Below, piece after piece: positions 4,913 to 7,480 of a DNA stretch of 26,327 nt. Where the stretch lies: IMG/VR virus record IMGVR_UViG_3300028361_000109, positions 1-26,327 of that record, one strand, 5' to 3'. Position numbers and translations under genes: made by a program. Source of the DNA: a virus. The number at the start of each line of letters is the position of its first letter. Within the stretch, counting starts at the first letter, position 1. The notes under the pieces are model-generated. The model had not been told where the DNA came from and did no database searches. It worked only from the letters and a program-made list of their open reading frames with translations.

Positions 4913-5007
4913 GTCAGCCACCAGACAATGCCAGCAACCACAGCCACCAGCAGGGCGCACCAGAACGCGGACACGATCACGCCAAACGTCCGGTCACTGA
5001 TCCTCAT
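4909..5007 (-). CDS. 32-residue membrane protein in lysis cassette
   Basis: This is a mini-gene filling the gap between endolysin and i-spanin. ATG 5007 overlaps the endolysin stop as ATGA, and its own stop overlaps the i-spanin GTG as GTGA. The peptide starts MRISDRTFGVIVSAFW and continues as one hydrophobic helix (CALLVAVVAGIVWW). The charged N-terminus suggests N-in topology. Position and topology would suit an accessory holin, antiholin or pinholin-like peptide. It could also be a conserved small membrane protein without a lysis role. Confidence 0.65.
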   Translation of the reverse strand: MRISDRTFGVIVSAFWCALLVAVVAGIVWWLT

Positions 5008-5537
5008 GATGTACCCCGCAGGCATAGCTGCACCTCATCGGCGCGACGATTTACCAATCCGCGCACCACACGATTGCCCGCGCGGGTCCACCAGCCTATT
5101 GCCTCGCACCCGCCAGCAATATCCCCAGCATTAAGCCGCCGCGTTGCTGTGCTTTTGCCGATGCCGTGGATGCCCGCGTTGTAGGCCAGCGACACATAGG
5201 CCGCGTCCCGCTCTGGCGTCAGGCGTAGCCCCTTCGTTTCGCGCGTGAAGTACTGATGCAGGCCGTCGCGGAATGTTACTAGTCCGCGCTCCAGCATTTC
5301 GGCACACTGTGCATCGGTGTAGGTATCGCCACGATTTACGCCGCGCGTCTCGCCGTAGCATACAGTCCAGACGGCAGGGCTTGCGATGGTGTCGAGGTAG
5401 GCAGTGTTTTTCTTGCCCTCCCATTTTGCCACGAGCGGCACCAGAACGCGCATTGTTGCGGCCTCGCTAGTGCTGGCAATTGGTGCCGTAGGCGTCACGG
5501 CACACACGACAATCGCGCAGATAATATCCCGGATCAT
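5004..5537 (-). CDS. GH24 lysozyme-type endolysin with signal/SAR N-terminus
   Basis: This 177-residue muramidase is expected to cleave the glycan backbone of peptidoglycan. The T4-lysozyme-type triad is visible as Glu40 (KWEG), Asp49 (AYLD) and Thr58 (VWTVCYGET). The start at 5537 overlaps the holin stop as ATGA; a longer frame reaching 5693 merely overlaps the holin gene. Residues 4-25 (DIICAIVVCAVTPTAPIAS) form a weakly hydrophobic, Ala/Ser/Thr-rich N-terminus, so export by Sec as a signal-anchor-release or cleaved form is likely. The Asp-Thr spacing is 9 instead of the usual 6 because of a short SPA insertion. Later cysteines (60, 78 and near the C-terminus) may matter for activation. Confidence 0.85.
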   Translation of the reverse strand: MIRDIICAIVVCAVTPTAPIASTSEAATMRVLVPLVAKWEGKKNTAYLDTIASPAVWTVCYGETRGVNRGDTYTDAQCAEMLERGLVTFRDGLHQYFTRETKGLRLTPERDAAYVSLAYNAGIHGIGKSTATRRLNAGDIAGGCEAIGWWTRAGNRVVRGLVNRRADEVQLCLRGTS

Positions 5538-5743
5538 CGCGCAATCCCCTGCGATACCACGCGCCCGACGATACCCGCCACGATCAGGCCCAGACCAATG
5601 AAAACCCACATATGTGGGTTTGTGTCGCGCTCGGTGGCAAGGTAGATTGCATCCGGCGCAAGAATAGCCACAATGCCCAGATAGTTTGCCCAAGACGAAT
5701 ACGCCCTTAGCAGGATTTTTTTTGCGTTAGGTACTAACTTCAT
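5534..5743 (-). CDS. Holin-like membrane protein
   Basis: This 69-residue protein has a basic amphipathic N-terminus (MKLVPNAKKILLRAY) and two hydrophobic segments, YLGIVAILAPDAIYLA (about 21-36) and MWVFIGLGLIVAGIVGRVV (about 45-63). Size, topology and position directly upstream of the endolysin fit a phage holin. The VPNAKxxLxRAYSxWA start is familiar from alphaproteobacterial phage holins. GAGGTGA precedes the ATG at good distance. A diverged copy of its first 19 codons lies at 6405-6461 beyond the HNH gene, so this gene may be a replacement or second holin. Confidence 0.75.
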   Translation of the reverse strand: MKLVPNAKKILLRAYSSWANYLGIVAILAPDAIYLATERDTNPHMWVFIGLGLIVAGIVGRVVSQGIAR

Positions 5744-5889
5744 TTTCTCACCTCAAGAAAAGCGAAATACCGCATAAAGCTGCGCTAAATCTTGTATATA
5801 CTGCGGGAATGTTGTATTTTTTTCGTAAGGCACGGCGGCTTTGAAACGCCATGCCTCACTAACCAAGCGGATCGAGAAAGGATCACGTA
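5744..5889. other. Non-coding stretch between holin and HNH gene
   Basis: This is 146 AT-rich bases. They hold the holin ribosome-binding site at the left edge and the HNH ribosome-binding site (AAAGGA) at the right. A TATACT (5797-5802) facing the HNH gene could be a -10 box, but no matching -35 is convincing. I find no remaining 3' half of the disrupted holin copy here. It is probably part of the mobile HNH cassette. Confidence 0.4.
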
Positions 5890-6405
5890 ATGGCTGTAGC
5901 CTCAATAGATAAAATTCAAGTTGTTGGCAACGTTGCTTACATCCCATTAACTCAAGGGAAGAAGGCAATAATCGACCTAGATGACGTTCCGATTGTAAGC
6001 GGATTCTCATGGTGGATAAACGCCCACAAGAAAAGCACCTACGCAATAAGAAGTGTCAGAATTTCACCAAATGTATGGTCAACGATTTATATGCATAGGC
6101 TTATTATGAACGCGCCAGATAACCTTCAGGTAGACCACATATCTGGTGACGGCCTCGACAACCGCAGATCCAACATGCGGCTTGTTACGATAGCCCAAAA
6201 TAGGCGCAACCAGAGAATTAACAGCAGGAATTCAAGCGGGTTTAAGGGTGTCAGTTTTCATGCGCAATCGGGGAAGTGGCGCGCCACGATAGGGCATTTG
6301 GGTACCATGCGGCATATCGGTCTTTTTGAGTGCCCAGTTGATGCACACATTGCCTATTGCAAAGAGTCAAAGCGGCTGCACGGGGAATATGGAAGGCGGT
6401 GGTAA
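5890..6405 (+). CDS. HNH homing endonuclease with AP2 DNA-binding domain
   Basis: This 171-residue protein has an HNH_3-type nuclease core: MHRLIM (His69), then VDHISGDGLDNRRSNMRLV (Asp82, His83, Asn91, Asn95). An AP2-like DNA-binding domain follows from about residue 116 (SGFKGVSFHAQSGKWRATI through HGEYG). AAAGGA lies before the ATG. It is the only plus-strand gene between the lysis cassette and the tail genes and is visibly richer in A+T than its neighbours, both signs of insertion. Its stop codon ends at 6405, exactly where similarity to a holin gene on the other strand begins, so it looks like a free-standing homing gene that landed in a holin. Confidence 0.9.
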   Translation: MAVASIDKIQVVGNVAYIPLTQGKKAIIDLDDVPIVSGFSWWINAHKKSTYAIRSVRISPNVWSTIYMHRLIMNAPDNLQVDHISGDGLDNRRSNMRLVTIAQNRRNQRINSRNSSGFKGVSFHAQSGKWRATIGHLGTMRHIGLFECPVDAHIAYCKESKRLHGEYGRRW

Positions 6406-6461
6406 GCCCACATGGAGTAGGATCTCATGGCAACGGCTCTGGCGTTAGGTACAAGTTGCAT
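6405..6461 (-). pseudogene. 5' remnant of a disrupted holin gene
   Basis: ATG 6461 is preceded by AAAGGG and lies 3 nt after the stop of the 138-residue gene upstream. It opens MQLVPNARAVAMRSYSMWA. Over these 19 codons 11 residues match the intact holin's MKLVPNAKKILLRAYSSWA, including LVPNA and the YSxWA end. The similarity stops at base 6405, the last base of the HNH stop codon; the frame then runs antisense through the HNH 3' end to a stop at 6354. The two copies share an exact 11-bp word, GCGTTAGGTAC (5724-5734 and 6442-6452). The nucleotide divergence suggests a paralogue or allele, not a fresh duplication. Confidence 0.75.
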
Positions 6462-6464
6462 AGG

Positions 6465-6881
6465 TTACCCTTTCAAAAATGTCTGTGATAATTTAACCGG
6501 CCCCATCTGCATTCGCCCGATGTGCCACGTCCACTTTGCGGACCAGTGAAAACCCACCGGATCACTCAGGCAGTCAGCAGCCCATGCGATAGACCACATA
6601 CCTACATCGCCCGCACGGGTGTACTGAAATGGCCCGCCACGCTCCGTACAGGATTGCCCGCCGTTGTGTGTTTCTGTCAGCGGGCGCACCGTCTCTGAGT
6701 ACGACAGCCACGGGCGCGCAATGCCAGCGCGGTCCATCGGGAATGAGCGGTACATCGTGACGTGATCGCCGCGTATCTCCACGGCCTGCGGGTTGTAGGC
6801 AATCCGGGAAAGCGGTGCCGTCTGGAATACCACTACGGCAACCGTTGCCCAGCCGATCCAAAGCAAATAGCGCCCGCTCAT
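6465..6881 (-). CDS. Membrane-anchored phage protein of unknown function
   Basis: This 138-residue protein has an N-terminal hydrophobic segment (YLLWIGWATVAVVVFQ) and an extracytoplasmic-looking domain containing IRGDHVTMYRSFPMDRAGIA, SYSETVRPLTETHNGGQSC and WAADCLSDPVGF. Two cysteines probably form a disulfide. I recognise the ETVRPLTxxHNGGQxC pattern from prophages of alpha- and gammaproteobacteria, without a known function. The start at 6881 overlaps the preceding stop as ATGA; a longer frame to 7073 lies over that gene. In the ancestral layout it was followed by the holin now reduced to a remnant, so it belongs to the pre-lysis end of the late operon. Confidence 0.7.
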   Translation of the reverse strand: MSGRYLLWIGWATVAVVVFQTAPLSRIAYNPQAVEIRGDHVTMYRSFPMDRAGIARPWLSYSETVRPLTETHNGGQSCTERGGPFQYTRAGDVGMWSIAWAADCLSDPVGFHWSAKWTWHIGRMQMGPVKLSQTFLKG

Positions 6882-7183
6882 TTCGTCGGCCCGATGTAAA
6901 AACCTGCCAGCCATTCTGCGAAATTGGAGCCATACACATAAAGCCCCCAGAATATGCCAAGGGGAGCGGCCAGCCACTTCATTGCGCCGTTCGTCAGCCA
7001 CAGCGTCATACGCACCGACCGCACAATTTTGCGGATGAGTTGATCCACCTCTCGATCCTCTGGCGTTAAGCATTGAGATTCCAGTTCAGATAGTCGCCTT
7101 TCATAGCGCGATAATGTTTCATCGTCATAATGTGCCAATCTTTCGGGCCTTCCTGTTCGCCGTACTACTTTCGGGCATTGCAT
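6878..7183 (-). CDS. Hypothetical protein with C-terminal membrane segment
   Basis: This 101-residue protein has a charged helical N-terminal part (DDETLSRYERRLSELESQ and REVDQLIRKIVRSVRM) that may form a coiled coil, then a hydrophobic C-terminus (WLAAPLGIFWGLYVYGSNF). GAAGG lies about 12 nt before the ATG. A small inverted repeat (GGCCGTCCGGCC) sits between this and the start. It is coupled to the next membrane gene by an ATGA overlap, so the two may act together at the membrane. Confidence 0.65.
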   Translation of the reverse strand: MQCPKVVRRTGRPERLAHYDDETLSRYERRLSELESQCLTPEDREVDQLIRKIVRSVRMTLWLTNGAMKWLAAPLGIFWGLYVYGSNFAEWLAGFYIGPTK

Positions 7184-7207: not shown

Positions 7208-7480
7208 CTATAAACCTTTAACTTTCCGCAGCGTCTTTTCCGCGTTTTCTATTTCGCGTTGCCATTCTGCCGCGCAGTGATCCGGTTGCCAGAAAAACAG
7301 CGCGTTGATAATTCGCCGCGCCCGCATCCATCCGCCGCTTGTTTCGATATGCGCCCGCGCGCTGGTGGTTTGGAATGTTGAGCCGCCGGGGAGCGAGCCG
7401 TTGATCGCGCGACTAAGCAACCCGACTGCCATCTCTGCTACACGATAGGCAACGTAGAGCGGGCGAGGTAGGCGTATCAT
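7208..7480 (-). CDS. Hypothetical late phage protein (FWQPDHC type)
   Basis: This 90-residue protein starts MIRLPRPLYVAYR and ends with helices around NALFFWQPDHCAAEWQREIE. The FWxxDHC..E signature is familiar from small late proteins next to tail-fibre genes in Rhodobacterales phages and prophages, with no known function. The N-terminal half contains a weak hydrophobic helix (AYRVAEMAVGLLSRAI). The start overlaps the stop of the BppU-like gene as ATGA. Confidence 0.65.
   Translation of the reverse strand: MIRLPRPLYVAYRVAEMAVGLLSRAINGSLPGGSTFQTTSARAHIETSGGWMRARRIINALFFWQPDHCAAEWQREIENAEKTLRKVKGL

Follow-up and report, generated by a model that had tools for sequence, protein, structure and literature searches.

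Why does a phage lysis operon carry the first 19 codons of one holin gene and the whole of another, with an endonuclease gene in antisense orientation between them? Phage lysis modules are often exchanged, and the trigger of an exchange is seldom visible. The operon considered here lies on the minus strand of a 26,327-base virus record, the whole of which was analysed and is referred to as the window; it comprises p90, p101, p138, a holin fragment, a complete holin gene, a lysozyme gene and, downstream of lysozyme, Rz/Rz1-like spanins, and it is interrupted between the holin fragment and the complete holin by a gene for an HNH-AP2 endonuclease that runs on the other strand. If the fragment is a broken recipient end, perhaps preserved beside the enzyme, the target site would be legible from the sequence with an uncertainty of a few bases, and a homing endonuclease would have imported a resistant version of an essential gene along with itself, leaving the recombination joint frozen. 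The features are as follows.

7208-7480, minus strand: p90, a gene of the lysis operon
6878-7183, minus strand: p101, a 101-residue gene of the left-hand module
6465-6881, minus strand: p138, a 138-residue gene of the left-hand module
6405-6461, minus strand: first 19 codons of a second DUF7940 holin gene, surviving as a 5' remnant, from tblastn and family scoring
6354-6461, minus strand: putative 35-codon frame (19 holin residues plus 16 from the antisense strand of the HNH gene) with an RBS-like site
6405-6425, minus strand: codons 13-19 of the remnant, presumed to be the recipient side of the site targeted by the endonuclease
5890-6405, plus strand: HNH-AP2 endonuclease gene, 171 amino acids, antisense to the lysis operon
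5751-5889, no strand assigned: leader of the HNH gene, separating the start of the endonuclease from the RBS of the intact holin
5534-5743, minus strand: complete holin gene (DUF7940/phrog_1356), 69 amino acids, from Pfam and PHROG profiles
5687-5707, minus strand: codons 13-19 of the intact holin, the target-equivalent stretch, altered (S14A, M17S)
5004-5537, minus strand: phage lysozyme, forming the right-hand module with the holin, similar to the L012/L016 group of loci from 5750 downward

By profile match and by its place before lysozyme, the complete gene is a predicted holin of the DUF7940/phrog_1356 type (DUF7940, E=5e-10, 40.2 bits against a cut-off of 27; phrog_1356, 'holin', 2.1e-5); the lysozyme gene overlaps it by ATGA. 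A tblastn search of the record with the intact holin finds two places, the gene itself and 6399-6461, where residues 1-21 align with E=7.1e-4. The initial annotation had reported codons 1-19 of a second holin gene at 6405-6461, with a ribosome-binding site and 11/19 residues identical to the intact holin, and both claims are borne out: an RBS-like GAAAGGG stands upstream of the remnant ATG at 6461, and recomputed identity is 11/19 to the intact holin (10-12/19 to six relatives). Scored against seven family members, a set that includes the window's own holin, the remnant has a mean BLOSUM sum of 69.7, the same value as the intact holin; the runner-up among 30,400 stop-free 19-residue windows scores 23.6, and none of 200,000 residue shuffles reaches the remnant's score. 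Chance resemblance is rejected on the tblastn E-value, the shuffles and the score of the next window. Judged from its sequence, the remnant is the genuine 5' end of a second DUF7940 holin gene.

The 19 codons of the remnant stop at 6405, which is the final base of the TAA stop codon of the endonuclease gene (6403-6405). Past this point DNA identity over codons 20-30 is 6-11 of 33 bases in five comparisons with holins. Similarity had been described as ending exactly at the last base of the HNH stop; the end at 6405 holds, but the boundary is uncertain by up to ~6 bases because codons 20-21 retain 2-3 of 6 bases. The range first assigned to the locus, 5724-6461, contains the HNH gene, its leader and the remnant but takes in no more than the opening bases of the intact holin. 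At the left joint, inspection by eye alone showed no convincing microhomology. A query with the start of the remnant, MQLVPNARAVAM, against viral contigs returned the known group plus L068 and L069 only, and no relative beginning in this way; the proposed homologue continuing the remnant past codon 19 was likewise not seen in the viral contigs. Neither a close continuation nor a donor phage was found, and the scar is known from one genome.

None of the HNH-free relatives carries both holin starts: each has one clear start, on 11 of 11 distinct contigs (12 loci). An extra weak holin match in L029, on the opposite strand (28 amino acids, E=0.006), is taken as chance, and L013 has a weak HNH-like match (49 amino acids, 29%) well upstream of its holin. 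This distribution bears on the idea of an ancestral tandem holin/antiholin pair, one member of which was later truncated by the HNH gene and whose short product may still modulate lysis. Tandem DUF7940 genes are present in one genome, G262, and the remnant retains its RBS-like site and 35-codon frame, but with a single clear start in each of the 11 HNH-free contigs of the group we regard such a pair as very improbable.

The DNA on the two sides of the endonuclease gene has different relatives. With blastn, the left part (7158-6496) matches L009 and, partly, L010, and the right part, from 5750 or 5746 to 5019 (5087 in L016), matches L012, L013, L016 and L018; 5751-6495 is unmatched in all eight loci compared. 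The mosaic joint of the lysis module is placed at the endonuclease because the left and right matches go to different relatives, and by these matches two lysis modules from different lineages meet there. Viral contigs sharing holin and lysozyme do so at 70-74% and 80-84% identity, respectively, and in L016 and L012, the ones inspected, a different gene lies upstream of the holin. On the left, L009 has p101 (79%) and p138 (75%), and no DUF7940 gene was found in its record.

The locus that most nearly gives the uninterrupted order is L068, with a gene in the p101 position, p138 (52%), one holin (49%) and lysozyme (58%), HNH being absent between p138 and holin. An uninterrupted holin directly after p138 had been anticipated, and L068 provides the HNH-free order p138-holin-lysozyme; its p138-holin gap, however, is 114 bases against 3 bases in the window, and it is not a relative beginning with the remnant start. 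The C-terminus of p138 in the window (LSQTFLKG) is closer in look to that of L068 (LSRTFLNG) than to that of L009 (YQQTVLRS). The gap itself (L068:4667-4782) reads as a C-terminal piece of the L012-type gene upstream of holin (ending DIKTLL...), apparently another trace of module swapping. Neither p138 nor the holin protein matched anything among annotated phages, a search of genome contigs by p138 gave two weak, distant matches only, and alignment scans of viral contigs with p101 and p138 gave no additional complete p138-holin locus.

A mosaic lysis region could also arise if two phage lysis modules underwent ordinary recombination, out of register or illegitimate, HNH being passive cargo and the truncation point accidental. 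The same topology is found around a methyltransferase, without an endonuclease, at L066:4244-6852, a prophage of G262 (drawn from the phylum of a Burkholderia): holin and the first part of lysozyme are followed by a methyltransferase (PF13578) and then by intact holin and lysozyme, and the truncated copy is identical to the second at 303 of 356 bases (85%). Phage recombination alone can therefore produce such a layout, and the earlier proposal that a donor's holin was imported with the endonuclease stands only in part: the flanks are indeed of different lineages by blastn, but topology does not separate it from pure recombination. Two features of the window count against ordinary recombination. 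The break sits in roughly the 10/69 most conserved codons of the gene and abuts the HNH gene's end directly, and the stretch equivalent to the break is altered in the intact copy. We consider it a possible but rather doubtful account; homing is favoured here because of the position of the break and the altered site, not because of topology.

A plain insertion of the HNH gene into the holin gene, as of mobE into nrdA, followed by an independent replacement of the damaged part by another phage's holin-lysozyme, appears improbable. Homing endonuclease insertions that split genes are documented in PMC2988022, and similarity in the right module sets in 7 bases ahead of the holin ATG, as a second crossover could leave it; but the scheme requires two events and a holin-defective intermediate, and the interval 5744-5889 shows no 3' piece of a holin gene, tblastn giving one full holin and one 5' piece only.

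The two features that favour homing concern the same part of the holin gene. Codons ~14-20 (YSxWA) are its most conserved DNA: among L069, L068, L016 and L012, the 21-base stretch starting at codon 14 is 87% identical, the highest value in the gene. The window's intact holin diverges most from its relatives around codons 11-20. Across 11 relatives 85 bases are invariant, and the window's holin differs at 8 of these. Five of the 8 fall among the 15 invariant bases of codons 13-19, against 3 among the other 70 (Fisher p=0.004, with three of the five changed bases in one codon and relatives that are not independent); the clustering is statistically weak when changes are counted per codon (p=0.11) or treated as a scan statistic (417 of 20,000 permutations). 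The only residues invariant in the relatives but changed in the window's holin are S14A and M17S. Codons 13-19 of the remnant are identical to those of nine relatives at 17-18 of 21 bases and to those of the window's intact holin at 12 of 21. The changes in the intact copy are suggestive of a donor allele altered at the target and resistant to cleavage. The YSxWA codons had been proposed as the target site; that they are the most conserved DNA of the gene and are altered in the intact copy agrees with this, the target itself being presumed.

The 171-residue protein matches Pfam HNH_3 (E=3.8e-8, 33.3 bits against a cut-off of 24.8), and its top PHROG is phrog_99, HNH endonuclease (8.7e-37). The AP2 match is below threshold (PF00847, E=0.014, 16.2 bits against a cut-off of 33.3), and the resemblance to plant AP2 factors is weak (E=0.027). 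The HNH motif is intact: D82, H83 and N104 are invariant in nine of nine aligned sequences, and the spacing of 21 between H83 and N104 is the same as that between H75 and N96 of I-HmuI (residues D74, H75 and N96 are named in a passage of PMC12724721). G+C content is 47% in the HNH gene and 45% in its leader, against 56% in the whole record. The AT-rich composition and the intact motif count for homing. An RBS-like AAGGA precedes the gene, and no promoter-like site was found in the leader 5751-5889; an antisense gene with no visible promoter counts against homing. According to PMC2988022, the usual cleavage site of a free-standing endonuclease is at least hundreds of bases away from its own gene, which also counts against homing.

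A group I or II intron around the endonuclease was considered and rejected, no Rfam family reaching the gathering threshold in a scan of the window. All 134 phage records matching the HNH protein do so at <60% identity. A scan for flank repeats at 24 other HNH loci found the window's repeat, flush with the endonuclease end, not clearly matched elsewhere; L080, L089 and L091 were among loci with lower E-values, from linked weak pieces elsewhere, and the scan, which is not discriminating, supports nothing either way.

On balance, and with confidence a little better than even, we read the locus as the scar of one-sided intronless homing. We infer the cutting, its target, the donor, the order of events and the resistance as follows. 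The HNH-AP2 enzyme would recognize the most conserved DUF7940 holin DNA, at about codons 13-20, TCCTAYTCNATGTGGGCY. In a recipient phage with the order p101-p138-holin-lysozyme, the holin gene would be cut or nicked near codon 19. One broken end would be repaired by homology from a donor in which HNH adjoins the intact holin-lysozyme of a different lineage, so that endonuclease, holin and lysozyme would enter together; the other broken end, without donor homology, would undergo illegitimate joining to the HNH gene at its 3' end, and this joint would freeze codons 1-19 as a scar. The imported holin, altered at the target, is probably not cut and would restore lysis. PMC2988022 describes one-sided illegitimate repair in cases where homology is missing from one flank, as well as flank co-conversion and targets at critical codons; the title of PMC10448857 puts nuclease genes at boundaries of genetic exchange.

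The T4-like free-standing HNH and GIY-YIG endonucleases (seg/mob) resemble the window in that the endonuclease gene adjoins the gene thought to be its target, and their intronless homing involves the flank co-conversion and critical-codon targets proposed here (PMC2988022); a recipient made resistant by acquiring the sequence of the donor allele is described in a section of PMC12724721. Unlike these systems, the window keeps the severed 5' end of a second allele against the endonuclease gene, its HNH gene runs antisense, and the site presumed to be cut coincides with the junction. The order of an HNH and then an AP2-like domain is shared with the phage endonucleases IPA-HNH of ICP1 and HNN-AP2 of Xanthomonas phages, the type being noted for ICP1-like phages in part of PMC10448857 and for Xanthomonas phages in part of PMC2248197. 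In fungal mitochondria (Allomyces atp6; Phlebia atp6 and cox2), PMC4019555 describes an endonuclease that separates a displaced gene end from another copy of that end. In those cases duplication affects the 3' end and yields a fused gene, whereas in the window it is a 5' end that has been displaced, and the second copy is whole and has a start of its own. In its workings the locus would correspond to a free-standing homing endonuclease locus; relative to the fungal insertions its layout is a mirror image, at the 5' end. For mobE in Aeh1 nrdA and mobA in T4 gene 60, PMC2988022 has the endonuclease inside the coding sequence with both parts still forming one enzyme, whereas in the window what follows downstream is an entire gene from a different lineage. 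Among the titles listed in literature searches, none reported that a homing endonuclease had inserted into a holin gene or a lysis cassette.

A more speculative extension, which we think unlikely though worth stating, is that the HNH gene and the target-altered holin travel as a single unit and act as a natural rescue homing drive. Such a unit would cut an essential lysis gene, land in the cut gene and supply a complete replacement that cannot be cut; it would spread among phages sharing YSMWANY-coding DNA and swap their lysis modules as it did so. The putative truncated 35-residue product could additionally tune lysis timing.

Several minor observations concern the surrounding genes. No Pfam or PHROG family matches p138, and p101 has no match in Pfam and a weak partial match only in PHROGs (phrog_17123); the two recur as a pair within otherwise differing lysis regions. 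Viral contigs L010, L071 and L072 end inside p101 or p138, possibly reflecting recurrence of the module in variable contexts. The HNH gene lies beside a holin gene in one of 11 phage records viewed, that of Pseudomonas phage UFJF_PfDIW6 (L079:1480-2255), where a 37.6%-identical HNH relative precedes the annotated holin and endolysin by ~48 bases. Contig IMGVR_UViG_3300031329_000009, which is 46 kb long, carries the same lysis cassette near both ends (L016 and L017), which suggests an unclosed circular or permuted genome.
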